A model generated the notes under the pieces. The model had not been told where the DNA came from. It was given only the letters and a program-made list of their open reading frames with translations, and did not search any database. This document shows positions 4,446-27,281 of a stretch of DNA of 64,000 nt, piece by piece. Position 1 is the first letter of the stretch; each line of letters begins with the position of its first letter. Origin of the DNA: a virus; IMG/VR virus record IMGVR_UViG_3300008012_000022, positions 1 through 64,000 of that record; one strand, written 5' to 3'. A program made the position numbers and the translations under genes.

Positions 4446-4473
4446 TTGACAATATGAAATTTGGCGCTATTTT
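4446..4473 (+). promoter_or_regulatory. Sigma70-type promoter for leaderless gene at 4479
   Basis: The -35 TTGACA (4446-4451) and -10 TATTTT (4468-4473) are separated by 16 bases. The -10 ends 5 bases before the ATG at 4479, so transcription should begin at or next to the start codon. The spacer contains TTTGGCGC, an octamer common across the window. The -35 match is perfect; activity is inferred. Confidence 0.7.
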
Positions 4474-4478
4474 TATCT

Positions 4479-5003
4479 ATGAATATAATGTTATTAGATG
4501 AAGATCCTCAATTATGTGCACAATTAGCATGTGATAAACACGCAGTTAAAATGGTTACTGAATCTTCTCAACTTATTGCTACATGTTTTTCGTTAAATAA
4601 ACTCAAAGAAGCACCAAAAACTCAATCGGGGAATTATCGAAAACATTTCAACCCAAAACACCCCTCATCAATTTGGGCACGTAAATCAACAGGAAATCTT
4701 GATTGGTTGCTTATATTTGCCCTTTATCAATTAGATGAATATAAATTCCGTTACAATCGTGATCATTTCTGTAATGAATTTATTTATTGGGCAATTAATA
4801 ATGTTGATGAAGCACAAGTTGTTTGTGGAGAACTAACCGAATTTTCTGTTGCTATATCACAAGATTCTTTATGTAGACAAAAAATAACCAATTTTGATGA
4901 TTTGTGTGTTGTGCAAAAATATCAAGAATACTATAATTGGGACAAAGCTTATTTTGCCAAATGGGAAAAAGGAAGAAGCAAACCAAACTTTTTTAGACAT
5001 TAA
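4479..5003 (+). CDS. Conserved phage protein of unknown function (MNI-x-LDEDP / CDKHAVKM family)
   Basis: 174 residues from the ATG at 4479. This start is chosen over an upstream TTG at 4461 because the protein then begins MNIMLLDEDP, as in related phage proteins, and because the promoter -10 lies 5 bases before it. The motif CDKHAVKMVTESSQLI (about residues 18-33) and a later HPSSIWARKS are the recognisable family signatures. Similar proteins occur in many phages without known function; conserved Cys, Asp, His and Lys could form an active site. It is the first gene of a two-gene forward unit with a phosphoesterase. Confidence 0.7.
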   Translation: MNIMLLDEDPQLCAQLACDKHAVKMVTESSQLIATCFSLNKLKEAPKTQSGNYRKHFNPKHPSSIWARKSTGNLDWLLIFALYQLDEYKFRYNRDHFCNEFIYWAINNVDEAQVVCGELTEFSVAISQDSLCRQKITNFDDLCVVQKYQEYYNWDKAYFAKWEKGRSKPNFFRH

Positions 5004-5005
5004 TT

Positions 5006-5731
5006 ATGGAAACCTTTATTATAGGAGACACCCACGGAGATCTGTCAAAATTTTATTATTGGCAAATGCGATTCTCAAAAAAGAATTTTAATCTCATTCA
5101 TGTGGGAGATGTGGGAATTGGTTTTCCCCATTATAAAAAGAATTATATAGAAAGATTAAATAGGCAATTTAAACGGTGCGGAATTATGTTCTATGGGTGT
5201 CGTGGAAACCATGATAACCCACGATACTGGAATGTTGGTGATGGCGCGGAACATATCAAACTTTCTAACTTCGAATTGGTGCCAGATGGTGAGGTTAGAA
5301 ACATTAGCGGTAAAGACGTTTTATTTTTCGGTGGTGCGTCCTCTGTCGATAGATGTGTCCGTAAACACGGTTGGGATTATTGGCGCAATGAACACCCAAT
5401 ACTTGATATCAACAAATTAGGAAATCACGATAACGTTGATGTCGTAATAACACATGGTTGTCCATCTCGTGTAATCCCTGTAACTTTACCAACCGCTAAA
5501 GGTGATGGTATCGTTCAACACTTTGCAAAGAGAGATATCACGCTTGTCGAAGATTTAAAAAGTGAACTTAAACTATTTGATACTTTTGAACAGTTCATTC
5601 TAGACTCTTACGATATAGAAAAGTGGTATTTCGGACACTACCATATCTCACAAACTTGTGAGATAGATGATATAGAGTATCGATGCCTCGATATATCAGA
5701 AATTGTGGAACTTAACCGAACCCAAAGCTAA
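5006..5731 (+). CDS. Calcineurin-like metallophosphoesterase
   Basis: 241 residues. All five metallophosphoesterase motifs are present in order: GDTHGD (7-12), GDVG (34-37), GNHD (67-70), a lone TH (149-150) and GHYH (210-213). These coordinate two metals and hydrolyse phosphomonoesters or diesters; phage members act on nucleotides, RNA ends or protein phosphates, and the substrate here cannot be told. It starts three bases after the upstream gene with no clear ribosome site, so translation is probably coupled. Its end overlaps the end of the convergent structural gene by 20 bases. Confidence 0.9.
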   Translation: METFIIGDTHGDLSKFYYWQMRFSKKNFNLIHVGDVGIGFPHYKKNYIERLNRQFKRCGIMFYGCRGNHDNPRYWNVGDGAEHIKLSNFELVPDGEVRNISGKDVLFFGGASSVDRCVRKHGWDYWRNEHPILDINKLGNHDNVDVVITHGCPSRVIPVTLPTAKGDGIVQHFAKRDITLVEDLKSELKLFDTFEQFILDSYDIEKWYFGHYHISQTCEIDDIEYRCLDISEIVELNRTQS

Positions 5732-13366: not shown

Positions 13367-14259
13367 GTTAATGCTATTGGTTTATATTCCCAAACGTTTT
13401 CTGTTTCTTCGATGCTTTCGAAATCTTCTTTAAGTAGATGATATCGAAAGAAGTTCTTCCATACTCTATGAGAGTTAACGAAGTGGCCTAACTGTTCATT
13501 ATCTTCGGTGCGAAGATGTTGCATGAAATTTTTCAGACCTTCAACGTTATCAGTTCCACAATAGTTTTCTACTTCAATATGGTTCGCCCAATGACGCATC
13601 ACCTGTCTTATGGTGTCTGCCCTCTCAATAATAGCTGGCGCAAGGGGATCGTCAGGGTCAACGCCTAAGTATAGATGGTTGGTGCGACCATAGCACCAAA
13701 GATATTTAGCTTCATGATCTATCTTGTTATCCACGGGGCGACCACCTTCTTCTCCGTCTCTAATGCGCCACGTATGTTCGTGTTCGTCTTCGCTGAAACT
13801 ATCTTTAAGATCAATAGATAGAGGGCGAACACCATGTAAACCCCAATGAGGACTGCCAAAGAAAACAAGCCCATCATGCCATTTAAAAGCGAATCCTTTT
13901 CCATAATTATAAATACTCTGCACCTTTTGCATAGCCAAACTATCTAAAAGCTTTGGTAATCCTTCAACCCATTCGGAATTGAATCGTTCCATGCTATCAC
14001 GCATGACAAACCAATCACCTTGTTCCATTACAGACTCGCGTAAGAATACATTCATCTGTAGGTCATGGTCGTTAGTCCACTTGCGCCGTAAAACTTCGCC
14101 GCACCCTTTGCGTTCTTCAAGAAGATCAAGTGTTTCCTGATCTGTTTTGTGGTCACATACCCATATCATCCCATCGAATACCTCATGGCACGGATCTGTC
14201 AGTGCTTTGAGGTTATCGAATTCGGATGACGTTATTCCACATAAATATACTTTACTCAT
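13363..14259 (-). CDS. Glycosyltransferase-like phage protein
   Basis: 298 residues. MSKVYLCGITSSEFDNLKAL then EVFDGMIWVCDHKT and GDWFVMRDSMERF follow the pattern of a GT-A Rossmann start with an acidic donor-site loop (DSMER in place of DxDE). A later region, WCYGRTNHLYLG, also occurs in related phage transferases as I remember them. It starts as TAATG with the stop of the HNH-AP2 remnant. Substrates are unknown; it is one of several transferases in this region. Confidence 0.58.
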   Translation of the reverse strand: MSKVYLCGITSSEFDNLKALTDPCHEVFDGMIWVCDHKTDQETLDLLEERKGCGEVLRRKWTNDHDLQMNVFLRESVMEQGDWFVMRDSMERFNSEWVEGLPKLLDSLAMQKVQSIYNYGKGFAFKWHDGLVFFGSPHWGLHGVRPLSIDLKDSFSEDEHEHTWRIRDGEEGGRPVDNKIDHEAKYLWCYGRTNHLYLGVDPDDPLAPAIIERADTIRQVMRHWANHIEVENYCGTDNVEGLKNFMQHLRTEDNEQLGHFVNSHRVWKNFFRYHLLKEDFESIEETENVWEYKPIALT

Positions 14260-14531
14260 TAAATATTGTTTAGGTTTACAAAATTAGAATTTAATTTTGT
14301 TGCTGCCTCATTATAAGCAAGCGCGGCATCTTTTTCAGTATCAAAATATCCAATATTTTTAGTTTTCGCTTCGAAAGTGAGAGAAGACTTCCATTTTTTC
14401 TTTTCTTCACACCATGTAACACCTCTATATTTACTCGCAGAATCAGTATAAGCACCTCCATTTAACTTATTCTCACTGGCAGAACAACTACGTAAATTAT
14501 TAGTATTATTTCTCGTTCTTGAGGCGATTTC
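14259..14531 (-). pseudogene. Remnant of an HNH-AP2 homing endonuclease
   Basis: An open minus-strand frame of about 90 codons with no start codon. It reads TRNNTNNLRSCSASENK, matching the end of an HNH nuclease core, and then a complete AP2 DNA-binding domain (KYRGVTWCEEKKKW, NIGYFDTEKDAALAYNEAA). The first residues lie inside the NAMPT gene in another frame, and the stop overlaps the next ATG. The catalytic HNH half is missing. It is related to the intact copies at 45483-46007 and 47511-47978. The remnant is clear from sequence; that it once interrupted or flanked nadV is inference. Confidence 0.75.
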
Positions 14532-16077
14532 TCACGTCTTCAAACTTATGATCAATAATAAGTTGGCTATTTTTAAAAACAGGAACGAGGTGACTGTTCT
14601 GAGCGGCGAACCATGATACGTCTTCCATCATGACATAATCATTTCCAACCTTATACACCGAGACTAATCCAACTGCCGACTTCTTCAATCCATCATCTGT
14701 CTTTGGATCTTTGAACAGTGCTTTTGGTTCACCGTTAATCTCTGCATAAGTAGCTTTCATAGCGAACCCATAGGTGTCACGTGTCACGATAGCATCAGGT
14801 GTAATTGCACCCTGATATGTAAAGCTACCAATACCATAAACTACATTGGTTGACGAGAACCCTTTAGCTGCAAGACGCTCAGAGATTTCATTAGCACGAG
14901 CAAGTGTGATAGAATCCCCATAGATAGCGCCGATATGTGGGTCAAGAGTTTTGAATCCTGCGTAGTCAGTGCCTCCAAAGGTTTCCCATAGGCACTGGAT
15001 CAATCCTTTCTTTTCATCAGGCGTAATGTATGTTCCTGTCTTCTTGAGTCGTAGCTTGCGACTCTCAATGACTTGTGGATAATATTCTACCTCATCATCT
15101 GTGTAGCCTGCTACAATATGAACAGGATCTCCACTATCAGGACGAATAACTACCTTACCATCACGCTTCATGATTTCTTCTTTAAGCTGAACAAGTGTGC
15201 CACCATCAGGTGTGACAACCTGCCAGAAATCAAAGGTGTCACTGACAAGAGATACTATTCCATCTGGATATACTTCGGTAATCATACGCTTGAAATAATC
15301 GTAATCATCACCTCCATTGTCACCGTATGAAGAACCAGCACAAGCAACTGAGTGTTCCGTTGCATTGACTGAGCAACCAATCAATTCCTGACTTGAGTTG
15401 CCGTTATAATACTTCTCAACGAAGTCGATAGCAGGAACAGTATCGGTGCCAACGAATGATAAAAGGTGTGCAGCGCCAGATAGTATAGCTGATTCAGGTG
15501 AACCATGACCACGCATAGAGAAGTCGTGCCCCTGAAAAGGAACGAAATCACTATCACCTAACGTTTTTTCAGCCCATCCATCAAGCAACTGTCGATACAT
15601 GTGTGCTGTAGTTGCGCTTGTGCATGGCAACCATAAAGTATCACTAAGCAATGTCTCAATCGCATTGCTAATCCAAAAATGATCAGGGTGAGTATTATAT
15701 ACTACCAACATAGGCACACGAAGATTGACTCGTGACCCTTCGGGTAACGCCAAAATTTCAATTGGTAGATACCCTAAATCATGTAGTGCTTCAATGTGGT
15801 CACACTTAGCTTCGCTACCCATGTAGTTCTTATAGCGACGACGATACTGTGCCATCACTTCACCTTTAGGACGGTCAAAGAAATTGCGATCCCAATCGTC
15901 GATGAGGTATCGCTTGAGGAAATATTGTAGTCCGAAGAAGACTACCTTATCTACCCCCTCGACTCGTGATCCACGAGCAGTAAAGTTGCTATACATCATG
16001 GTAGTTCCTTTGGGGAACTGGTGATAATGGCCAAACTTGTAGCCATCCAACATGTAATGAGGACAATTAAGATTCAT
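14506..16077 (-). CDS. nadV: Nicotinamide phosphoribosyltransferase (NadV/NAMPT family; possible Namat)
   Basis: 523 residues, full family length. Signatures: DGYKFGHYHQFP (11-22), DFSMRGHGSPE (185-195), the catalytic-His region SVNATEHSV (about 236-243), RPDSGDP (312-318), IYGDSIT (385-391) and GIGSFTYQ (415-422). The family joins nicotinamide to PRPP to form NMN. In phage NAD+ reconstitution pathway 1 a homologue (Namat) uses ADP-ribose pyrophosphate and makes NAD+ directly. The upstream Prs-like gene fits either scheme. Its start overlaps the end of the 54-codon gene by 11 bases. Its last codons are overlapped by an HNH-AP2 remnant in another frame. Confidence 0.93.
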   Translation of the reverse strand: MNLNCPHYMLDGYKFGHYHQFPKGTTMMYSNFTARGSRVEGVDKVVFFGLQYFLKRYLIDDWDRNFFDRPKGEVMAQYRRRYKNYMGSEAKCDHIEALHDLGYLPIEILALPEGSRVNLRVPMLVVYNTHPDHFWISNAIETLLSDTLWLPCTSATTAHMYRQLLDGWAEKTLGDSDFVPFQGHDFSMRGHGSPESAILSGAAHLLSFVGTDTVPAIDFVEKYYNGNSSQELIGCSVNATEHSVACAGSSYGDNGGDDYDYFKRMITEVYPDGIVSLVSDTFDFWQVVTPDGGTLVQLKEEIMKRDGKVVIRPDSGDPVHIVAGYTDDEVEYYPQVIESRKLRLKKTGTYITPDEKKGLIQCLWETFGGTDYAGFKTLDPHIGAIYGDSITLARANEISERLAAKGFSSTNVVYGIGSFTYQGAITPDAIVTRDTYGFAMKATYAEINGEPKALFKDPKTDDGLKKSAVGLVSVYKVGNDYVMMEDVSWFAAQNSHLVPVFKNSQLIIDHKFEDVRNRLKNEK

Positions 16078-16231
16078 CTCGTTTAGTTACTTTAAATGTG
16101 ATCGGGACTCCGTTAAAAACTTCTACCCGATATTTTTTCTTGAATTCGTCAAGGAAATTTTGCAATACCAATACGTGTTGTAGATCTGCTTTAGGAGAAT
16201 GTCTAATAGGTGGATCGCCAAAGTCAATCAT
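16067..16231 (-). CDS. 54-residue protein embedded in the NAD operon
   Basis: ATG at 16231 overlaps the Prs stop (ATGA) and the stop at 16067 lies 11 bases inside the NAMPT start, so the gene is exactly fitted between the two enzymes. The product begins MIDFGDPPIRHSPKADLQHV, then a helix LVLQNFLDEFKKKYRVEVF and a basic strand ITFKVTK. I do not recognise it. The tight coupling suggests co-expression in fixed ratio with the NAD enzymes, perhaps as a subunit or regulator; that is inference. Confidence 0.72.
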   Translation of the reverse strand: MIDFGDPPIRHSPKADLQHVLVLQNFLDEFKKKYRVEVFNGVPITFKVTKRDES

Positions 16232-17097
16232 AATACATCTACTACAGTTAAATTTCCGCCACTACAATAATCGCTCTGAGAATTGGTGACATATACGTTA
16301 TCAAATTTTTCACAAAGATCGGGTAAACCATTGCGGTTACAATCTATATGAGCCAGCACGATATCAATATGTTTCGCGCCCCTTCCTTTCAGCTTATCGT
16401 GAAGTCCGAGAAACGTGCCACACATAGCGCCAACATCATCAACCACAATATATTGTTGATCAGGATAGAGATCGCTATCAAAAATAGACCCACCCTCTGG
16501 TCCAGACTTATCTTGCACAACAATATTATTTATTTTACCTGTGATAGGATCACGATCTTTATCAGCATAAACAATATCGAACCACCGATCATTAGTATAA
16601 CCCTGACTATCAAGATACTTCATTACTCGACCCGTGCGTTTGATAGCACCACCATCAGGAGATACTAAAATAATATTATCCTTCTTAAATATTGTATCCC
16701 ATGGCATAACTTCCTCAACTTCGATAGTAAAACAATTATTTAAAAGTGCGGGAAGCACATCAGAATGTGGTTCAACAGTTAAAATTTCATCGACATCTAA
16801 TGAATTTAAAAAGTCAGCATAAACCTTTGAGGTTAATGGTTCGCCACTATCACACAAACGATCTTGCCGTGCTGCTGGAATGTAAGGAATCTTAAGAACG
16901 ATATGTGTTCTTTTACCACCTATTAATTCAGTGCGCCGAATTGCATCCACTTTCGTTGCAATCACCATGGGATCAAACCTTGATAAAATGATTACAGTAG
17001 TTGCTCTTAGTAATTGTACATCATTTATTTTACAATGATAGGTTCCGTCAGGAAACCACAGTTGCTCTTTGACTACCTCGCTGAATGTTTTTATCAT
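16228..17097 (-). CDS. prs: Ribose-phosphate pyrophosphokinase family (Prs; possible Adps)
   Basis: 289 residues, slightly short for Prs (about 310-320). Motifs: PYIPAARQDR (71-80), EPHSDV with the catalytic His (109-114), YADKDRDPITGKI (177-189) and the phosphoribosyl-binding loop VVDDVGAMCGTF (218-229), which departs from the bacterial VDDMIDTGGT. Prs makes PRPP from ribose 5-phosphate; the phage homologue Adps pyrophosphorylates ADP-ribose for NAD+ reconstitution. Which reaction applies cannot be read here, but the NAMPT partner two genes downstream argues for NAD metabolism. A perfect -35/-10 pair ends 5 bases before its ATG. Confidence 0.9.
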   Translation of the reverse strand: MIKTFSEVVKEQLWFPDGTYHCKINDVQLLRATTVIILSRFDPMVIATKVDAIRRTELIGGKRTHIVLKIPYIPAARQDRLCDSGEPLTSKVYADFLNSLDVDEILTVEPHSDVLPALLNNCFTIEVEEVMPWDTIFKKDNIILVSPDGGAIKRTGRVMKYLDSQGYTNDRWFDIVYADKDRDPITGKINNIVVQDKSGPEGGSIFDSDLYPDQQYIVVDDVGAMCGTFLGLHDKLKGRGAKHIDIVLAHIDCNRNGLPDLCEKFDNVYVTNSQSDYCSGGNLTVVDVL

Positions 17098-17102
17098 GTT
17101 TA

Positions 17103-17130
17103 ATTATACTACAACTTTGGCGCTTGTCAA
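17103..17130 (-). promoter_or_regulatory. Consensus sigma70 promoter of the NAD operon, leaderless
   Basis: On the minus strand TTGACA (17130-17125), a 16-base spacer containing GCGCCAAA, then TATAAT (17108-17103), both perfect. Only five bases separate the -10 from the prs ATG at 17097, so the predicted start site is the start codon itself. It lies just after the terminator at 17135-17164, giving the NAD operon its own strong early-type promoter. Confidence 0.85.
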
Positions 17131-17134
17131 TAAA

Positions 17135-17164
17135 AAAGGTGAGCGACTTTCGCCGCTCACCTTT
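17135..17164 (-). terminator. Strong intrinsic terminator
   Basis: An 11-base stem AAAGGTGAGCG/CGCTCACCTTT with an 8-base loop that contains TTTCGC on the plus strand. On the minus strand the stem is followed by a T run (TTTTTTATTG). It ends transcription of the preceding operon and of the structured region 17165-17463, directly before the prs promoter. Confidence 0.88.
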
Positions 17165-17463
17165 AGGCAAGATAGCCTCCACCTTTGCGAACATCCACAA
17201 AGGAAAACTAGATACTTTTTATTGGTGGTGTCGGCGTGTATCCCGAAAGACACTGGCCTCATCAGTTTAGCGACTTAGAAGATCAACCTTACCCCGTTGG
17301 AACGTGCACTCTCTTAATAAGGGATTAATCTCTACTCCTTCCAACCGTTGCACAGTTGTATTGAATGAGCTATAGCGTATTTGATTGTCGGCGTATCGCT
17401 TTCACGAACCTAACCTACATTATGACTCTTGTACTCTTATTATGCTGTTAGTATCTAAATTAA
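17165..17463 (-). ncRNA. Candidate structured non-coding RNA (about 300 nt)
   Basis: No reading frame of note lies here. On the minus strand several helices can form: CCTTTG/CAAAGG around 17174-17202; GTTGGAA with TTCCAAC enclosing about 17296-17345; GGC-GTGT with ACAC-GCC near 17232-17256; and AGCG with CGCT near 17373-17400. The motif GATACGCCGACA recurs in slightly altered form (GATACACGCCGACA). It is followed at once by a strong terminator, as expected for an RNA gene or a long 3' regulatory RNA. No known RNA family is matched. Strand is chosen from the terminator; helices are by eye. Confidence 0.5.
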
Positions 17464-19193: not shown

Positions 19194-21467
19194 TTATATT
19201 GTAGCCTCGATCTGAGATAAGTCAACTACTTTTTTCTGTTTTTTTAGTCCATCTATTGCGAGAGGAATCACAGATTGACGGAAGATTCTTGATATGTCTT
19301 CGTAACCCTTTGCCGTCCCAATATTTAAGTCTAAAGCAGAGGCAAGACCCTTTGTTTTTATGCCTTGTCTATCCAAATCTTCAATCAATTTCTCAAGTTT
19401 GCACGCAAGAAAAGTTTTTAAATGTTCGGTTGTAGGTTTTTCTAAAAAGACAAATTGGGCTAGTTCTACAATGTCATCTGAAACATTCGGCGCTTCATCT
19501 CCACCAGCAAATCCCACCTTACCGCTCTTGCAATTAGCGCCGAGAATAAAAGTTACATTGGTTAACGGAATGATTTCATTATCGATAGTTTCAAAGCGAC
19601 CTGTCTTAAACCCATCAAGTAGAATATCTGCTGCATCTTTATCCAACCTGTCAACGTCATCAATGATCACAACAGGGTTCTCATGGTATCCTAATTTTTT
19701 AGCGAAGGAACCTTTACCGCTATCCATGAAGTTACCTAAGAGTGATACTGGATTGAGCGCGAACCTTGTCGCATTCAATACCTCGCAACCACATGTTCTT
19801 AAACATTCGCCAGCAGATTTGAGGAAGTATGACTTACCAACCTTTTCATTACCGTATACCACAATAATATTTGGTTCACTACCCGCACTAATATTCACAG
19901 AATACAGTGCTGTATCAAACAAGTCTACGTTATCTTTATTGATAACCTTTCGACTCAAACGCTGCACGAACTCGTGTTGTAACTCTTTAGACAGAAGGTT
20001 AACAATATTTTCCTTAAGATAAAAATGAAGATGATCTAATGTAACAGGTGCCTTAGTATCCTTGATAGATAATCCCCACTCACGATAAAGGTGATGTAAT
20101 TTTTCTACGTCATCATTTAATTCACCCTCTTCGCTAGCGTCTTTCGCTTTTTCCATGAGTGTTAATTCAAACTCTCGAATATCATCAGGCACCACAAAAT
20201 AATCCATCTTCGCTCTAGCGCCACAAAAATCAATAACATCTACAAGCTTGTCAGGATATGCTTTGTGTGGCAATTCCTTATCGCAAAAAGAAATTACTTG
20301 TTCACAGAATTCGTCACCATATTTTACAGGATGTAATTGCTCATAATGATCTACTAGTTGAGGTAGAATTTCCTTCATCTGTGTTGATGTAGGAGGATAC
20401 ATACGGATCAACTGGAACCGTCGCTCAAGAGCAGGGTTCCCTTTAATCTTAGAGTCGTATTCAGAAGGTGTCGTAGCGCCGATGCATGAAATTTCTCCAC
20501 GCGCCAACGCGGGTTTGAGAATGTTTGATGCCTCAAGGTCATCACTCTTACCTCCTGTGCCTGCCCCAACTAGAGTATGAATCTCATCAAAGAAGAGAAT
20601 AACATTATGCTTACTCTTAACTTCTGCAATGAACTGAGTTAACTTAGCCTCGAATTGTCCGCGCCAAATAGATCCACTAAGCATATCTGCAAGGTGAACA
20701 TCATATACTACCTTGTCTTTCAACAGGTCTGGCGCACGACCCTCAACGATTTCTCTAGCTAACAATTCAATGCAAGAAGTTTTTCCTATACCAGCAATAC
20801 CCGTGACGATAGCGTTCTTCTTTTTCTCTCTACACAATGTTGTATAAAGTTTCTCAAGAGTATTATCGTAGTCAACCAGTCCATCGTATTCTCCATAAGC
20901 TGCAAGAGAGTTGAGGTTAGTTGCAAATTCCTCGATGATCGGGTTATATTCAAATGGATCTTGCTTATCTTCTTCTGCGTCTTCATTATCGATTAGAAGA
21001 TCAAGTGCGTCATAATTTTTGAAGAAAGAAAAGTTTTGAATTGGTTCGTCACGAATGAACGATACTAATATCTCTTGCCACCTTTCAGAAAAACTATCTT
21101 CCTCACCCCCTAATTCTTCATCAAGAAAAAGATAAATGTATGGTCTTTCATTGTCAACCAAATCAGTCATGGCTAACAGAAGAAACTCTAAATTATTTTT
21201 GTTTTCTGGTTGGCCGAACAGCTTCGAAAATTTCTCTGCTGTATCAAAGACTTTTCGAACCACTGTCTGTTGCTGAACAGACTGAGGTTTCTTCATGAGG
21301 AACAAAGCAGATGCCATTTGCAACTGCTTAATCTCCACACCCAATGAATCAAATAGAGTCTTGACCGAAAGTGATCCGTGGTTGATAATGGCCGCGAACA
21401 ATACGTCCACACAAACAAACTCTAAATTAATACTATCTGCGTATTCTTTTGCGTCTTTAAATGTCAT
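19194..21467 (-). CDS. clpA: ClpA/ClpB-like AAA+ ATPase
   Basis: 757 residues. A Clp N-domain-like region fills about 1-150. The first AAA+ module has Walker A GIAGIGKTS (223-231), Walker B VILFFDEIH (289-297) and Arg finger ERR (348-350). The second has Walker A GNEKVGKS (539-546) and Walker B VVIIDDVDR (599-607). This is the ClpA layout: a hexameric unfoldase that feeds substrates to ClpP or remodels complexes. I do not see a clear ClpP-docking loop and no clpP gene is in the window, so it may use host ClpP or act alone. It overlaps the polymerase gene by 4 bases. Confidence 0.85.
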   Translation of the reverse strand: MTFKDAKEYADSINLEFVCVDVLFAAIINHGSLSVKTLFDSLGVEIKQLQMASALFLMKKPQSVQQQTVVRKVFDTAEKFSKLFGQPENKNNLEFLLLAMTDLVDNERPYIYLFLDEELGGEEDSFSERWQEILVSFIRDEPIQNFSFFKNYDALDLLIDNEDAEEDKQDPFEYNPIIEEFATNLNSLAAYGEYDGLVDYDNTLEKLYTTLCREKKKNAIVTGIAGIGKTSCIELLAREIVEGRAPDLLKDKVVYDVHLADMLSGSIWRGQFEAKLTQFIAEVKSKHNVILFFDEIHTLVGAGTGGKSDDLEASNILKPALARGEISCIGATTPSEYDSKIKGNPALERRFQLIRMYPPTSTQMKEILPQLVDHYEQLHPVKYGDEFCEQVISFCDKELPHKAYPDKLVDVIDFCGARAKMDYFVVPDDIREFELTLMEKAKDASEEGELNDDVEKLHHLYREWGLSIKDTKAPVTLDHLHFYLKENIVNLLSKELQHEFVQRLSRKVINKDNVDLFDTALYSVNISAGSEPNIIVVYGNEKVGKSYFLKSAGECLRTCGCEVLNATRFALNPVSLLGNFMDSGKGSFAKKLGYHENPVVIIDDVDRLDKDAADILLDGFKTGRFETIDNEIIPLTNVTFILGANCKSGKVGFAGGDEAPNVSDDIVELAQFVFLEKPTTEHLKTFLACKLEKLIEDLDRQGIKTKGLASALDLNIGTAKGYEDISRIFRQSVIPLAIDGLKKQKKVVDLSQIEATI

Positions 21468-23986
21468 TTTAAATCTCTAACTTTAAGATAAACCCGTTCT
21501 CCCATAATGTCAATCGAATTTACCCACTCATCGTTACCACGCACGATAACGATGTCAGATTTAGACATTCCGCCAGACTCTTCCTCCCAATCGGAGAATT
21601 TCTGAGCACGCGGCGAATCACAGAACATCATTGTTTTTTGTGTCTCTTCATCAGAGATTGTAAAACGGATGTAGCGATTTCCTTTAACACTTTTCTTGAT
21701 AAAAAAGTCATCAACGTGCCCTATCACGCGCCAACTATTTGATCCACCCACTGCTGAGATAGGATCAAGTTGGCCATCGAAACATTCACGAAGTTTATAT
21801 GTATAAGCATACCCTAATAATTTCTTTTCAAACCACCAGATAGCAAGCTTCTCAAATTTTTTGTTAGCCTCATAAAGCTCTTTATATTTGGTATAGTCAC
21901 GCTTGAAAACATTTTCAAATCGTTTGTCTGCCATAATTTGCTTAGTGACATCGCCCTTACCGATACGATGACGAGTTTTAGCAATTACATCTAACAGTTT
22001 GTAATTAAACTCTTTGCCGAACGCTTCAAAGTTCATTTTCTCCCTGTCTGTTAGAATGTTAAAGGTCTGAGCTTCCAATGCAGTTAACAAACGAAAGTCT
22101 GAACCGAGTGCTCCAGCATAAATCAAACTAGATAACACACCAATATTAATACCACATTGTTTCGCGCTACGAAACACATCAAATTTGTTATCGCGCTTAG
22201 TCTTAACGAAGTCTCCTAATGCGTCTTGAGTTGAAGTAGAAATACCCTTGATAGATTTTAAACCGTAACGGATATTACCGTCTTCAATTGTGAAGTCCAT
22301 CTCTGATTTATCAAGCTGTGGTGGTAATAAATTAATACCAAAGTCATGTAACTCACGAGTCACTTCTGCCACTACCTCAAGAGGTTCCTGCTCATGCTCC
22401 GCTATCTCTAATATAGAACAGAAGAATTCAGATGTATGCTTATACTTAAGCCACACAGTCTTAGCAGCAAGAGATGCATAGCAGATACTATGCGACAAAT
22501 TAAACTGGTAGGCTGCACTGTTCTCAACAACGTTCCAAAAATAGTTGGGAACCTCATGGTGAATACCTGCTGCGTCTGCCGCATCAAAGATTTTACCTTG
22601 CCATTTAGGAATTTCATCTACCTTTTTCTTACCGATAGCGCGACGAAGATTTTCCGCATCATCAAGTGACATACCAAACACCTCGTGACAACTGCGCATC
22701 ACTTGTTCCTGATACAACATTACATTTTTTGTTGTAGCAAGAATGTCATCCAAAGCATCATTCATACCTAACTTCTCAGGAGTCACCTTTTGCTTCTTGT
22801 AATCACTTACAAATTGTAGTGCCGCTGGTCTAGCTAAAGCAACCACGTCAGATAACTCAAAAAGATTGAGAGGTTTAATGGCCTGTGCAACTTCACAGTT
22901 GGTATGCGCCGAAATTTGAAATAGTCCAGCGGGATGTTTATAATCTTGCAACTGTTGATAGATGAATGGGTCTTCGGGATCAATGTCATCGAAATCAACT
23001 CCAATCTTCTCACATGCTAAGTAAGCTATTGACAATGTGCGTAGACCGAGAATGTCGAACTTAACCATAAGGTCAGCGACATCATCCATATCATAACCAC
23101 TAACTAAGCTACCATCTTTGGTAAGCTGTAACGGCATGACCTTACGAATATCTTGTGAACAGATGGCAATACCTGATGGGTGAACACCATTGTTCTTATG
23201 TAAATTTTCAATCACTAATGCGTGATCAAAGATTTTTCGATTTTCGTCTACCCATTCTTTGAACTTATCAGATTCCTCATAGGCACGCTCTAAAGATAAC
23301 ACTTTACCATGTTCCTTCGGCACCATATCAGAAATACGGTTAGCCTCTTCCTCGTCTACCTCCCCAAAATATTTCGCCGCTTCTCTAATACATAGCTTCG
23401 AAGAGAATGTATTGTATGTAAGAATTTTTGATGTGCGACCTTTATGTTTTTCCTCAATGTAATCAATAACGAGTGGACGATGAGAATGGGCGATATCAGT
23501 ATCCACATCAGGAGCAAGAGCACCAACAAGAAACGTTTTTCCATGTTTGTCTGTTATTTTCTTCGCCCGTGACGGAGACACAAATCTCTCAAAATACAGT
23601 CCGTATTTAATCGGGTCAATATTTGTAACCCTTAATAGATACAGCACTAATGATCCAGCGGCGGAACCTCTACCATCTCCGATGGGCACCTTATTTTTCC
23701 GCGCAAAATTTATTACATCCCAATTCAATAAGATATAGTCAGTGAAACCCAACTCTTCAAAAATTTGAAGCTCAGTTTTAACCCTGTCGTAGTATTCTTG
23801 TTTGTTGGGTAAGTTTTCAATACCACGTTCCTTCGCACCCTCTAGTGCAAGCCCACGCATTACATCAAAACTTGATGCGCTATTGTCTAACCCCAACTTG
23901 TCTAAAACTTTAGCTTCAACCTCGATTTTAGGAAGTTCTAGACCTGCTGGTTCACAATCGTCATATGGTTTAAAATCTTCAAACAT
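21464..23986 (-). CDS. dnaE: DNA polymerase III alpha, catalytic core without PHP domain
   Basis: 840 residues. It begins at the palm/thumb region: IGDGRGSAAGSLV (102-114), catalytic PDVDTD with Asp160 and Asp162, and the third aspartate in VKFDILGLRTL (Asp311). Finger and HhH regions follow, and a C-terminal OB fold is visible in WRVIGHVDDFFIKKS. The N-terminal PHP domain of the family is absent and encoded separately at 28356-29039. This is the replicative polymerase of the phage. The start forms TAATG with the upstream small gene and there is no room for a PHP domain. Confidence 0.92.
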   Translation of the reverse strand: MFEDFKPYDDCEPAGLELPKIEVEAKVLDKLGLDNSASSFDVMRGLALEGAKERGIENLPNKQEYYDRVKTELQIFEELGFTDYILLNWDVINFARKNKVPIGDGRGSAAGSLVLYLLRVTNIDPIKYGLYFERFVSPSRAKKITDKHGKTFLVGALAPDVDTDIAHSHRPLVIDYIEEKHKGRTSKILTYNTFSSKLCIREAAKYFGEVDEEEANRISDMVPKEHGKVLSLERAYEESDKFKEWVDENRKIFDHALVIENLHKNNGVHPSGIAICSQDIRKVMPLQLTKDGSLVSGYDMDDVADLMVKFDILGLRTLSIAYLACEKIGVDFDDIDPEDPFIYQQLQDYKHPAGLFQISAHTNCEVAQAIKPLNLFELSDVVALARPAALQFVSDYKKQKVTPEKLGMNDALDDILATTKNVMLYQEQVMRSCHEVFGMSLDDAENLRRAIGKKKVDEIPKWQGKIFDAADAAGIHHEVPNYFWNVVENSAAYQFNLSHSICYASLAAKTVWLKYKHTSEFFCSILEIAEHEQEPLEVVAEVTRELHDFGINLLPPQLDKSEMDFTIEDGNIRYGLKSIKGISTSTQDALGDFVKTKRDNKFDVFRSAKQCGINIGVLSSLIYAGALGSDFRLLTALEAQTFNILTDREKMNFEAFGKEFNYKLLDVIAKTRHRIGKGDVTKQIMADKRFENVFKRDYTKYKELYEANKKFEKLAIWWFEKKLLGYAYTYKLRECFDGQLDPISAVGGSNSWRVIGHVDDFFIKKSVKGNRYIRFTISDEETQKTMMFCDSPRAQKFSDWEEESGGMSKSDIVIVRGNDEWVNSIDIMGERVYLKVRDLK

Positions 23987-24713: not shown

Positions 24714-25204
24714 TGTTGTGTTTCTATAAGCGCCCGAAGGTTGCGTTTAAGATCGTCCATACTTCCGTTGTTGTCAACCCAAAAGTCTGCCATCCATGGT
24801 TCAATATCCATAGACTCATTAGATTCTTTTGGTAATACATCTGAACGATCAATCCATATAGCTGCATCGAATAGGTTCTGATTTTTCAAAGCATAGAATT
24901 CGCGCCGACTTCTGATGCCACTATAAATATCATGGCGCTTGAAAATCTCGCGGCCTAATCTAGCTGGATCATACCTGTTATAATCACAGATCAAATCAAA
25001 CCATTCGTCACGGTGATTATATCTATCCTCGAAACATTCTTCTTTGGAGGTATAACCATATTTATCTTTGAGTGCACTATAGATAAACAAATCATTTGCA
25101 ATGGCGCTACTACCCTGAGTAGTCAGAATAGGATAGTCAATACATAGAAAATCTGCCGAAGTATCTTTACCATGCCGAGCATAGCCCATGATGATTAGTT
25201 TCAT
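24704..25204 (-). CDS. Deoxynucleoside monophosphate kinase-like P-loop protein
   Basis: 166 residues. MKLIIMGYARHGKDTSADFL has a P-loop variant (GYARHGKDT), and IYSGIRSRREFYALKN (about 93-108) is the arginine-rich lid region of phage dNMP kinases, with AAIWIDRSDV as the following strand. Such enzymes phosphorylate dNMPs for DNA synthesis, in line with the neighbours. It overlaps the HNH gene by 10 bases and the DUF4406 gene by 4. Substrate range is unknown. Confidence 0.75.
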   Translation of the reverse strand: MKLIIMGYARHGKDTSADFLCIDYPILTTQGSSAIANDLFIYSALKDKYGYTSKEECFEDRYNHRDEWFDLICDYNRYDPARLGREIFKRHDIYSGIRSRREFYALKNQNLFDAAIWIDRSDVLPKESNESMDIEPWMADFWVDNNGSMDDLKRNLRALIETQQWT

Positions 25205-25743
25205 GATTTTTCAACAATCTTACGTAAATCAGATTTTTTTGCAAGTGGTCGTGTGTTTCGAAAAACATCAAGAGTAGTTTGCATCGACTGTTTCAAGTTT
25301 TTGACTTGATCATCTATATTTTGGATAACCAACTGTTCAACTACAATTAACTGTCCAACTGGTGCACTCAATAGTTCATCCATACTATCAACAAATTTGT
25401 AAATTGGAATACCGCGCCATTGAGCAAGCATCACCTCTGCCTTTGCCCCTGTTGAATGTTCCCATCCATTAAGTAACGCTAGCGCATCAACAGTTTGAAT
25501 GACTTCTACATCGCGACGAATACAATCATCCGTAAATTCCCGAAGCTCCTGCTCATTCATGTGATCAAGATCATCACCACCTGTAGGATCATAGCTAATC
25601 GCCCTATCCATATCTGCTGGTGATATTACAATCCAATCTTTTTCCAACCTCGATTTAGCATAATCAAACGCAGGAAAATTATGTTTAGGATAACCAGTCA
25701 TAGGACCAGCTACATAGATCTTTTTCTTTTTATTACCAATCAT
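25201..25743 (-). CDS. DUF4406 nucleoside deoxyribosyltransferase-like protein
   Basis: 180 residues from the ATG at 25743. KKIYVAGPMTGYPKHNFPAF (about 6-25) is the hallmark of DUF4406, followed by CIRRDVEVIQTVDALALLNG and STGAKAEVMLAQWRGIPIY, the Rossmann-like core of nucleoside 2-deoxyribosyltransferases. The C-terminal 55 residues add a coiled coil. It may recycle or sense nucleosides. It lies between a dNMP-kinase-like gene and other nucleotide enzymes in one operon. Confidence 0.82.
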   Translation of the reverse strand: MIGNKKKKIYVAGPMTGYPKHNFPAFDYAKSRLEKDWIVISPADMDRAISYDPTGGDDLDHMNEQELREFTDDCIRRDVEVIQTVDALALLNGWEHSTGAKAEVMLAQWRGIPIYKFVDSMDELLSAPVGQLIVVEQLVIQNIDDQVKNLKQSMQTTLDVFRNTRPLAKKSDLRKIVEKS

Positions 25744-26101
25744 GTTTAAAGCTGCGAATAAATTTAACAGTTGCTTCATTTCGAAAAGGTTCTAACTCTT
25801 TCTCACTGTAACCCTTTTCTAAAAGTTGGGTATGGATATCTTTTACATCTATAATGCAATGCCTCTGCAACCCAAAATCCTTAATCCAATCCACTGCCCT
25901 ACCGAACAGTTGTTCTAACGAATCGAATACAGTATACCAACCACGCTTGCCAAAATCATAGTTAGTTAGTAAAATCCAACGTTCATCAGTATTGAAATGA
26001 TAATTAGTAACGAAAGATTCTACATCCTGTTTGATCTTATCAGCTTTTTCCTGATACTGATCAACCATTATTTTTAATATTCTATAATCTGTAGTAGGCA
26101 T
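25733..26101 (-). CDS. Hypothetical protein
   Basis: 122 residues from the ATG at 26101; upstream codons run through the neighbouring gene and are rejected. Begins MPTTDYRILKIMVDQYQEK, with a helix then strands ERWILLTNYDFG and HCIIDVKDIHTQLL. No motif is recognised. It overlaps the DUF4406 start by 11 bases and sits in the nucleotide operon. Confidence 0.6.
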   Translation of the reverse strand: MPTTDYRILKIMVDQYQEKADKIKQDVESFVTNYHFNTDERWILLTNYDFGKRGWYTVFDSLEQLFGRAVDWIKDFGLQRHCIIDVKDIHTQLLEKGYSEKELEPFRNEATVKFIRSFKHDW

Positions 26102-26102
26102 T

Positions 26103-26498
26103 TTAATAAAGGTGCAAGTCTTGTGCTGCTTTCTCACACATAGCGGCAATCTGAACCAGTTCCTTGAGAGCAGCTTCTCCATTCAACTGTTTTTCTTTTA
26201 CCTCGTCCCAAAACTCGTCTAACTCTTCACGGATGATACCGTATGCTTCATGAGGTGAATGCATATCACCATGAAGTTCACGTGACCGTGCTAGTTCAAC
26301 AGCTACCCGTGCCGCAAATGGAGAGGTGCCTTGTGAAGAAAATAAATCTCGTTCACCGTCCATAAATGATTGTGCCTCTTCATATTCTTGCATTTCACGC
26401 TCAAGAATCCTTTCGTTTTCATCATCCATCGCATTCATTCCTGCCAACACTGTATATAGCGAAGTTGACGGATCTATATTTGTTAAATCATATTTCAT
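26103..26498 (-). CDS. MazG-like nucleotide pyrophosphohydrolase
   Basis: 131 residues. The C-terminal half, MHSPHEAYGIIREELDEFW then ALKELVQIAAMCEKAAQD, carries the EExxE-type metal site and the helical bundle of the all-alpha NTP pyrophosphatases. Phage members hydrolyse dNTPs or ppGpp-like alarmones. The N-terminal 60 residues are acidic and not recognised. It overlaps the SLOG gene by 11 bases. Confidence 0.72.
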   Translation of the reverse strand: MKYDLTNIDPSTSLYTVLAGMNAMDDENERILEREMQEYEEAQSFMDGERDLFSSQGTSPFAARVAVELARSRELHGDMHSPHEAYGIIREELDEFWDEVKEKQLNGEAALKELVQIAAMCEKAAQDLHLY

Positions 26499-26997
26499 CT
26501 GTTAATTCTAATACTAATTCAAATAGTGTTTGTTTGTCGAAGTCTTTAGCTCCGAAATTATATACAGGAATGTTCAATGTCTCTGCCATCTTAATTCCTT
26601 GACCAGTGCCGCCCGTATCGTTTCCGTTCTCTGTCCAACACACAACGAACTCCACTGGAGAGTTAAGCTTCGGTCCTAAAAGTTGATGGACATTCCGCGC
26701 CAATAACTTTTGTGATCCAACGGATTTCTCTTTCCAGTTTGGATGAAACCTTGCCGCCATGGTATGAGCCTCTTTCGAAGGAGTGAATAATTTAGAGGTA
26801 TGACCATTAAATCCGCGCCACGGAAGAAAGATTTGTTTGTTAGCAGGTATCACATACTTCTCAAAAGCTAAGTCTGCACCTTCGGCACCACCTGAACGAA
26901 GAGTTAACCCTTGATCTTGCGCCCATCTACCGAACTTCTCAAATGATACTTGAATATCATCTGGTATAGTTCGCCGCCCTATTCCTGCGTAATACAT
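26488..26997 (-). CDS. SLOG-superfamily (DprA/Rossmann-like) nucleotide-binding protein
   Basis: 169 residues from the ATG at 26997. MYYAGIGRRTIPDDIQ, LTLRSGGAEGADLAFEKYV and VEFVVCWTENGNDTGGTGQG are the three glycine-rich motifs of the SLOG fold as found in DprA and related proteins. The fold binds nucleotides, in defence proteins also NAD-derived signals. In this replication operon it may act on nucleosides; no catalytic residue can be certain. Confidence 0.78.
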   Translation of the reverse strand: MYYAGIGRRTIPDDIQVSFEKFGRWAQDQGLTLRSGGAEGADLAFEKYVIPANKQIFLPWRGFNGHTSKLFTPSKEAHTMAARFHPNWKEKSVGSQKLLARNVHQLLGPKLNSPVEFVVCWTENGNDTGGTGQGIKMAETLNIPVYNFGAKDFDKQTLFELVLELTDEI

Positions 26998-27281
26998 TCC
27001 CAATCTAATTTTTTAAATTCTTCTTCTGACAGAGTTTTGATATTACCTAAAACTGATGCACCATATACTGTCATTCCATATGCTTCTTTGTGGCACTCAT
27101 AAACTGATCCACTGTATCCACGAAATATATAATGTGTGTCAGTCTCTTCTACCTTACTGATACAAGAGTTAGTGCGCCAACTATCTCCACTGAGATAACC
27201 ACCAGACCATGTAGCGAACACTTTGTAATCAGTGCCATTGTTACACTGAAACACACACCATTTATCAGGATAATAAGTCAT
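26979..27281 (-). CDS. Hypothetical phage protein with aromatic-rich beta fold
   Basis: 100 residues. Alternating strands with WCVFQCNNGTDYKVFATWSG and HYIFRGYSGSVYECHKE suggest a small beta-sheet protein. It overlaps the SLOG gene by 19 bases and shares an ATGA junction with the 53-residue gene before it. A similar style, WxS-x-WR, occurs in that neighbour. Unknown function. Confidence 0.6.
   Translation of the reverse strand: MTYYPDKWCVFQCNNGTDYKVFATWSGGYLSGDSWRTNSCISKVEETDTHYIFRGYSGSVYECHKEAYGMTVYGASVLGNIKTLSEEEFKKLDWECITQE

Follow-up and report, generated by a model that had tools for sequence, protein, structure and literature searches.

We analyzed a 64,000-nucleotide stretch of viral DNA (the window), taken from a virus record of 93,368 bases. 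On its minus strand lie, in the order of transcription, a promoter, a gene for a Prs-like kinase, a small open reading frame (ORF), and a gene for a NAMPT-like transferase. The promoter (17103..17130) is of the sigma-70 type, TTGACA-16-TATAAT, and matches the consensus at 12 of 12 positions. The kinase gene (16228..17097) encodes a protein of 289 amino acids, the small ORF (16067..16231) one of 54, and the transferase gene (14506..16077) one of 523. The small ORF overlaps both enzyme genes, by 4 bp (ATGA) on the kinase side and by 11 bp on the transferase side, as would be expected under coupled translation. Searches of Pfam, PHROGs, and the fetched loci found no relative of the 54-residue product apart from itself. 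A PADLOC run gave no match. The original prediction had described a minus-strand operon in which one small gene separates a Prs-like and a NAMPT-like gene behind a perfect promoter, and all of these elements are present.

Directly ahead of the promoter lies a strong intrinsic terminator (17135..17164, minus strand) with a 13-pair stem, a 4-base loop, and a T run, which ends a preceding, probably non-coding transcript. Because the TATAAT element ends only 5 nt from the ATG at 17097, the message that starts from this promoter would be predicted to be leaderless or nearly so. Upstream of the promoter, about 330 nt (17131-17463, minus strand) are non-coding, fold better than shuffled sequences (z = -2.45), and end in the strong terminator; no Rfam family matched this structured stretch.

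NARP1 is a recently found phage counter-defense pathway in which Adps turns ADP-ribose into ADPR-PP, and Namat then uses ADPR-PP and nicotinamide to make NAD+ (PMC12774641). Two elements form the clamp that favors ADPR-PP: Arg40 in a loop, and a helix whose signature ends in TRD and includes the aromatic residues Phe392 and Tyr396; single clamp mutants lowered the activity 1.3- to 1.7-fold and the R40A/F392G double mutant 16.6-fold, and the proven Namat uses PRPP too in vitro (PMC12774641).

The kinase of the window matched PHROG 619 (E = 5e-53) and NCBIfam TIGR01251 (E = 5e-22, under the cut-off of that model). Its AlphaFold model had a pLDDT of 88.7, and the best fold in the PDB was that of E. 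coli PRPP synthetase (Foldseek E = 3e-16). A PDB sequence search with the Adps of the Bacillus phage SPbetaL1 as the query returned PRPP synthetases and their relatives only. In the kinase tree, canonical Prs formed one side of a branch with a support of 100, and the window kinase fell among the Adps on a long branch of its own (1.85). It carries the RD..TG motif seen in the Adps of NARP1 loci, at a place where E. coli has KRRPRANV, and it keeps all of the invariant Adps positions (Arg77, Asp79, His111, Asp148, Arg182, Asp220, Asp221, Thr228, Phe229, and His250). In its FxxGE motif, Glu is replaced by Thr, which is also the residue of the ICP1 Adps at that position.

The transferase matched PHROG 448 (E = 6e-184) and Pfam NAPRTase (E = 9e-32). 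Among solved structures, SPbetaL1 Namat came closest, with a phmmer E value of 1e-155 (human NAMPT, about 1e-54). It was also the top match among 50,697 phage records (50.2% identity) and ranked first in the PDB (9w5x/9w5w) when the AlphaFold model (pLDDT 88.0) was searched with Foldseek. A 65-row maximum-likelihood tree split Nampt from Namat at 100/100 and placed the window transferase in the Namat half. The same half contains Haemophilus ducreyi NadV (HdNadV; PDB 9KE8 and 9KEO), an NMN-forming enzyme solved with NMN that is about 40% identical to the window transferase, so tree position alone cannot settle the choice of donor. The tree placement that the original prediction had set as a test thus put both proteins in the Adps and Namat halves, outside the canonical Prs and NAMPT clades.

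The window transferase has the same residue as SPbetaL1 Namat at 18 of the 20 positions that touch NAD+ in the Namat crystal structure; at the other two, Ser replaces Ala362 and Ile replaces Tyr396. The catalytic and nicotinamide-site residues (Phe189, Arg192, Asp215, Arg306, the catalytic His, and others) are all identical. The clamp residues Arg40, whose counterpart is Arg38 (codon at 15964..15966, minus strand), and Phe392 are kept, whereas human and Xcc Nampt have neither. In the clamp-equivalent region, canonical NAMPT has GGGLLQ or GGALLQ, without adenine contacts; the window transferase has GSFTYQ there instead. With SPbetaL1 Namat as the closest named-phage relative and Arg40 and Phe392 retained, the proposed NARP1 (Adps/Namat) reading is supported at the sequence level.

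The selectivity-clamp helix region of the transferase, GIGSFTYQGAITPDAIVTRD (residues 415-434; 14776..14835, minus strand), contains a seven-residue insert, GAITPDA (residues 423-429; 14791..14811, minus strand). The helix reads GSFTYQ-GAITPDA-IVTRD, with the insert immediately ahead of the Tyr396 position and Ile430 in the place of Tyr396. The published signature is an uninterrupted GSX-X-X-TRD in which positions 3 and 7 are aromatic; here, Phe is kept at position 3 and Ile stands at position 7. The transferase departs from the strict signature, and we therefore filed it as a variant branch. The position-7 aromatic is also missing in other phage homologues, namely phiEa104 and UPM2146, both of which have Met. 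The insert occurred in 0 of the 33 other sequences of the alignment, and the AlphaFold confidence was low around it (residues 421-430, mean pLDDT 56).

Searches of IMG/VR, in which 272 entries were examined, duplicates among them, revealed the same insert in 13 distinct other viral contigs, with the pattern GA[VI]xxxAI, in which L268 has C in place of A. The window and these 13 contigs formed one clade (98/96) in the 65-row tree, from which columns filled in <30% of the rows, including those of the insert, had been dropped; the clade also encloses one further contig, L265. The Adps partners of the window and of six insert contigs (the seven in the tree) grouped together as well (SH-aLRT 92). 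The papers found do not describe the insert-bearing Namat branch; the pathway itself is known from other phages; PMC12774641 does not mention a clamp insert and uses the word "insertion" 0 times.

Nested in the insert clade, L265 is the sister of L264. Its Namat (3501-5033 of L265, from contig IMGVR_UViG_3300012348_000136) has the clamp GSYTYQYVTRD, in which Tyr396 is present and the insert is absent. The Adps proteins of L264 and L265 are 82% identical, and their Namat proteins are nearly alike outside the clamp. Because L265 swaps the insert for Tyr396 while having a similar Adps, the most likely role of the insert is to stand in for Tyr396, with the substrate unchanged, which suggests that the insert and Tyr396 may be alternatives for one donor.

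The PRPP-type loop of the kinase, VVDDVGAMCGTF (residues 218-229; 16411..16446, minus strand), does differ from that of canonical Prs, as had been noted in the original prediction. The accompanying proposal that the loop may point to a changed substrate was weakened by similar loops in SPbetaL1 Adps (DDLSSFGGTF) and by the L265 swap, which keeps the Adps. A loop other than DDICDGG accompanied the insert in all 13 pairs whose Adps could be read and, by the same loose criterion, also occurred in 27 of the 155 insert-free pairs, SPbetaL1 included; related rows are not independent, so these counts do not constitute a test. With comparable loops in other Adps, that of SPbetaL1 among them, the loop alone is no pointer to a changed substrate; judged from its sequence, it is a family-level variant partly common to SPbetaL1 Adps. 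A close peptide search of IMG/VR with the window Adps gave no match.

An Adps-type gene was found at 87 of 90 distinct viral Namat loci, each with at least 2.5 kb on either side of Namat, and at 80 of them it was no more than 1.5 kb from Namat and in the same orientation; L265 was scored as lacking Adps in this count, its Adps sitting just beyond the fetched stretch. At bacterial Namat loci, mostly from Bacteroidota, an Adps-type gene was present within the fetched flanks in 35 of 72. The operon order of the window matches that of SPbetaL1, Staphylococcus, mycobacteriophage, and other loci. When four insert-bearing phage contigs were compared with the window phage, each had 4 to 7 ORFs in common with it; the Adps-Namat pair was among these in all four, and Namat was the most similar gene (56-60%). 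The DNA polymerase of the window phage was absent from the other insert-bearing contigs. Being common to several phages that have little else in common, the pair behaves as a transferable cassette in which the two enzymes travel together.

The NARP1 locus of SPbetaL1 (Namat PDB entries 9W5X and 9W5W) shares with the window the gene order, both folds, the catalytic residues, the clamp residues Arg40 and Phe392, 18 of 20 NAD+ contacts, and an Adps without the ICDGG-type loop. It differs in that the window has the seven-residue clamp-helix insert, has lost Tyr396, and carries the 54-residue ORF between the genes; the two Adps are only 28% identical. The NARP1 locus of Pseudomonas phage Adele has the same order of Adps, small ORF, and Namat as the window, but its Adps has the ICDGG loop and its clamp, GSYTYQCNTRD, has no insert. 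In HdNadV, the clamp reads GAQTYQRNTRD, with neither of the two contact aromatics retained.

NARP2, which consists of Nampt and NadM and occurs, for example, in Caulobacter phage CcrPW, resembles the window locus in its transferase fold and in its likely purpose, NAD+ supply. However, CcrPW has a Nampt-type clamp (GGGL) and an adjacent NadM, neither of which was found here. The 93,368-base record, which may be incomplete, gave no match to an NMN adenylyltransferase (NMNAT; CTP_transf_like, PF01467) or to a NUDIX domain; the lack of both fits NARP1 and not NARP2. NARP2 was rejected on the basis of these missing matches and of the missing Nampt-type clamp. NARP1- and NARP2-type parts are combined in an Acinetobacter contig deposited as phage MD-2021a, in which Adps-like, Namat-like, and NadM/Nudix genes are consecutive (L018, 3099-6316) and lie beside chromosomal-looking genes.

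Our preferred reading, to which we assign a probability of about 0.82, is that the locus is a NARP1-type counter-defense cassette with a transferase from a sub-branch whose conserved insert in the selectivity-clamp helix would assume the role of Tyr396 in holding adenine. The Adps-like enzyme is predicted to transfer pyrophosphate from ATP onto ADP-ribose, yielding ADPR-PP (ADPR-pyrophosphate), which the Namat-like enzyme would combine with nicotinamide to give NAD+ directly; the rebuilt NAD+ would then allow the infection to survive host NADase defenses. Ordinary nicotinamide salvage, with the kinase making PRPP, a NadV/NAMPT enzyme making NMN, and a host NMN adenylyltransferase completing NAD+, would suit the family annotations of both proteins, the place of the NMN-forming HdNadV on the same side of the tree, the PRPP activity that Namat retains in vitro (PMC12774641), and the missing clamp Tyr396. 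We nevertheless consider it unlikely, given that Arg40 and Phe392 are both kept, whereas HdNadV is without Phe392 and Nampt without both; that the kinase groups with the Adps of NARP1 loci, not with canonical Prs, and has an RD..TG motif like theirs; and that the record shows no NMNAT, whereas NARP2-type phages have NadM beside Nampt (CcrPW). The trees and the clamp residues thus disfavor what the original prediction had offered as its alternative, an ordinary PRPP supply for NMN synthesis.

It is still less probable that the insert retunes the clamp to another donor, for example, another ADP-ribose derivative, in which case the product would not be plain NAD+ or a different immune metabolite would be used. 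The exact location of the insert at the adenine clamp, its conserved GA[VI]xxxAI pattern, and its constant company of an altered-loop Adps (13 of 13 readable pairs) would be compatible with such a change, but L265 regained Tyr396 within the insert clade, without the insert and with an Adps 82% identical to that of L264, and altered loops accompany insert-free Namat in 27 pairs (by the loose criterion), among them that of the proven SPbetaL1 Adps. We hold it to be just as improbable that the insert-bearing Namat branch and the Adps inherited with it work not on plain ADP-ribose but on one of its derivatives; if they did, the pair would regain a usable pyridine nucleotide from another product of host immunity. 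Least probable is a decaying cassette with an inactive kinase: the long Adps branch, the Glu-to-Thr change in the FxxGE motif, and the homing-endonuclease remnant adjoining Namat might hint at decay, yet the invariant Adps positions are all kept, the reading frames are intact, the promoter is perfect, and ICP1 Adps has Thr at the same FxxGE place. The NARP1-type cassette bears on the clamp itself, the proposed determinant of the choice of ADPR-PP over PRPP, in that a branch with an insert and one clamp aromatic lost, together with the aromatic regained in L265, provides a natural test of how the clamp works.

Several other genes were also recorded. Directly after Namat lies a remnant of an HNH-AP2-type homing endonuclease (14259-14510, minus strand) without a start codon; its AP2 domain (about 14286-14435) gave a Pfam E value of 4e-7, just under the cut-off. 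A short DNA polymerase III alpha of 840 amino acids is encoded at 21464-23986 (minus strand), with a ClpA-like AAA+ protein (19194-21467, minus strand) directly downstream; elsewhere in IMG/VR, this polymerase was found only on one near-identical contig end (L244). The product of 25201-25779 (minus strand) is a DUF4406/nucleoside 2-deoxyribosyltransferase-like protein, which may be an enzyme that acts on bonds between base and sugar. The small gene set in common with otherwise unrelated insert-bearing phages also includes a PHROG 624 protein (4461-5003, plus strand), a metallo-phosphoesterase (5006-5731, plus strand), and a DprA-like protein (26488-27003, minus strand); a link between phage SLOG-type proteins and derivatives of ADP-ribose has been described (PMC9503650).
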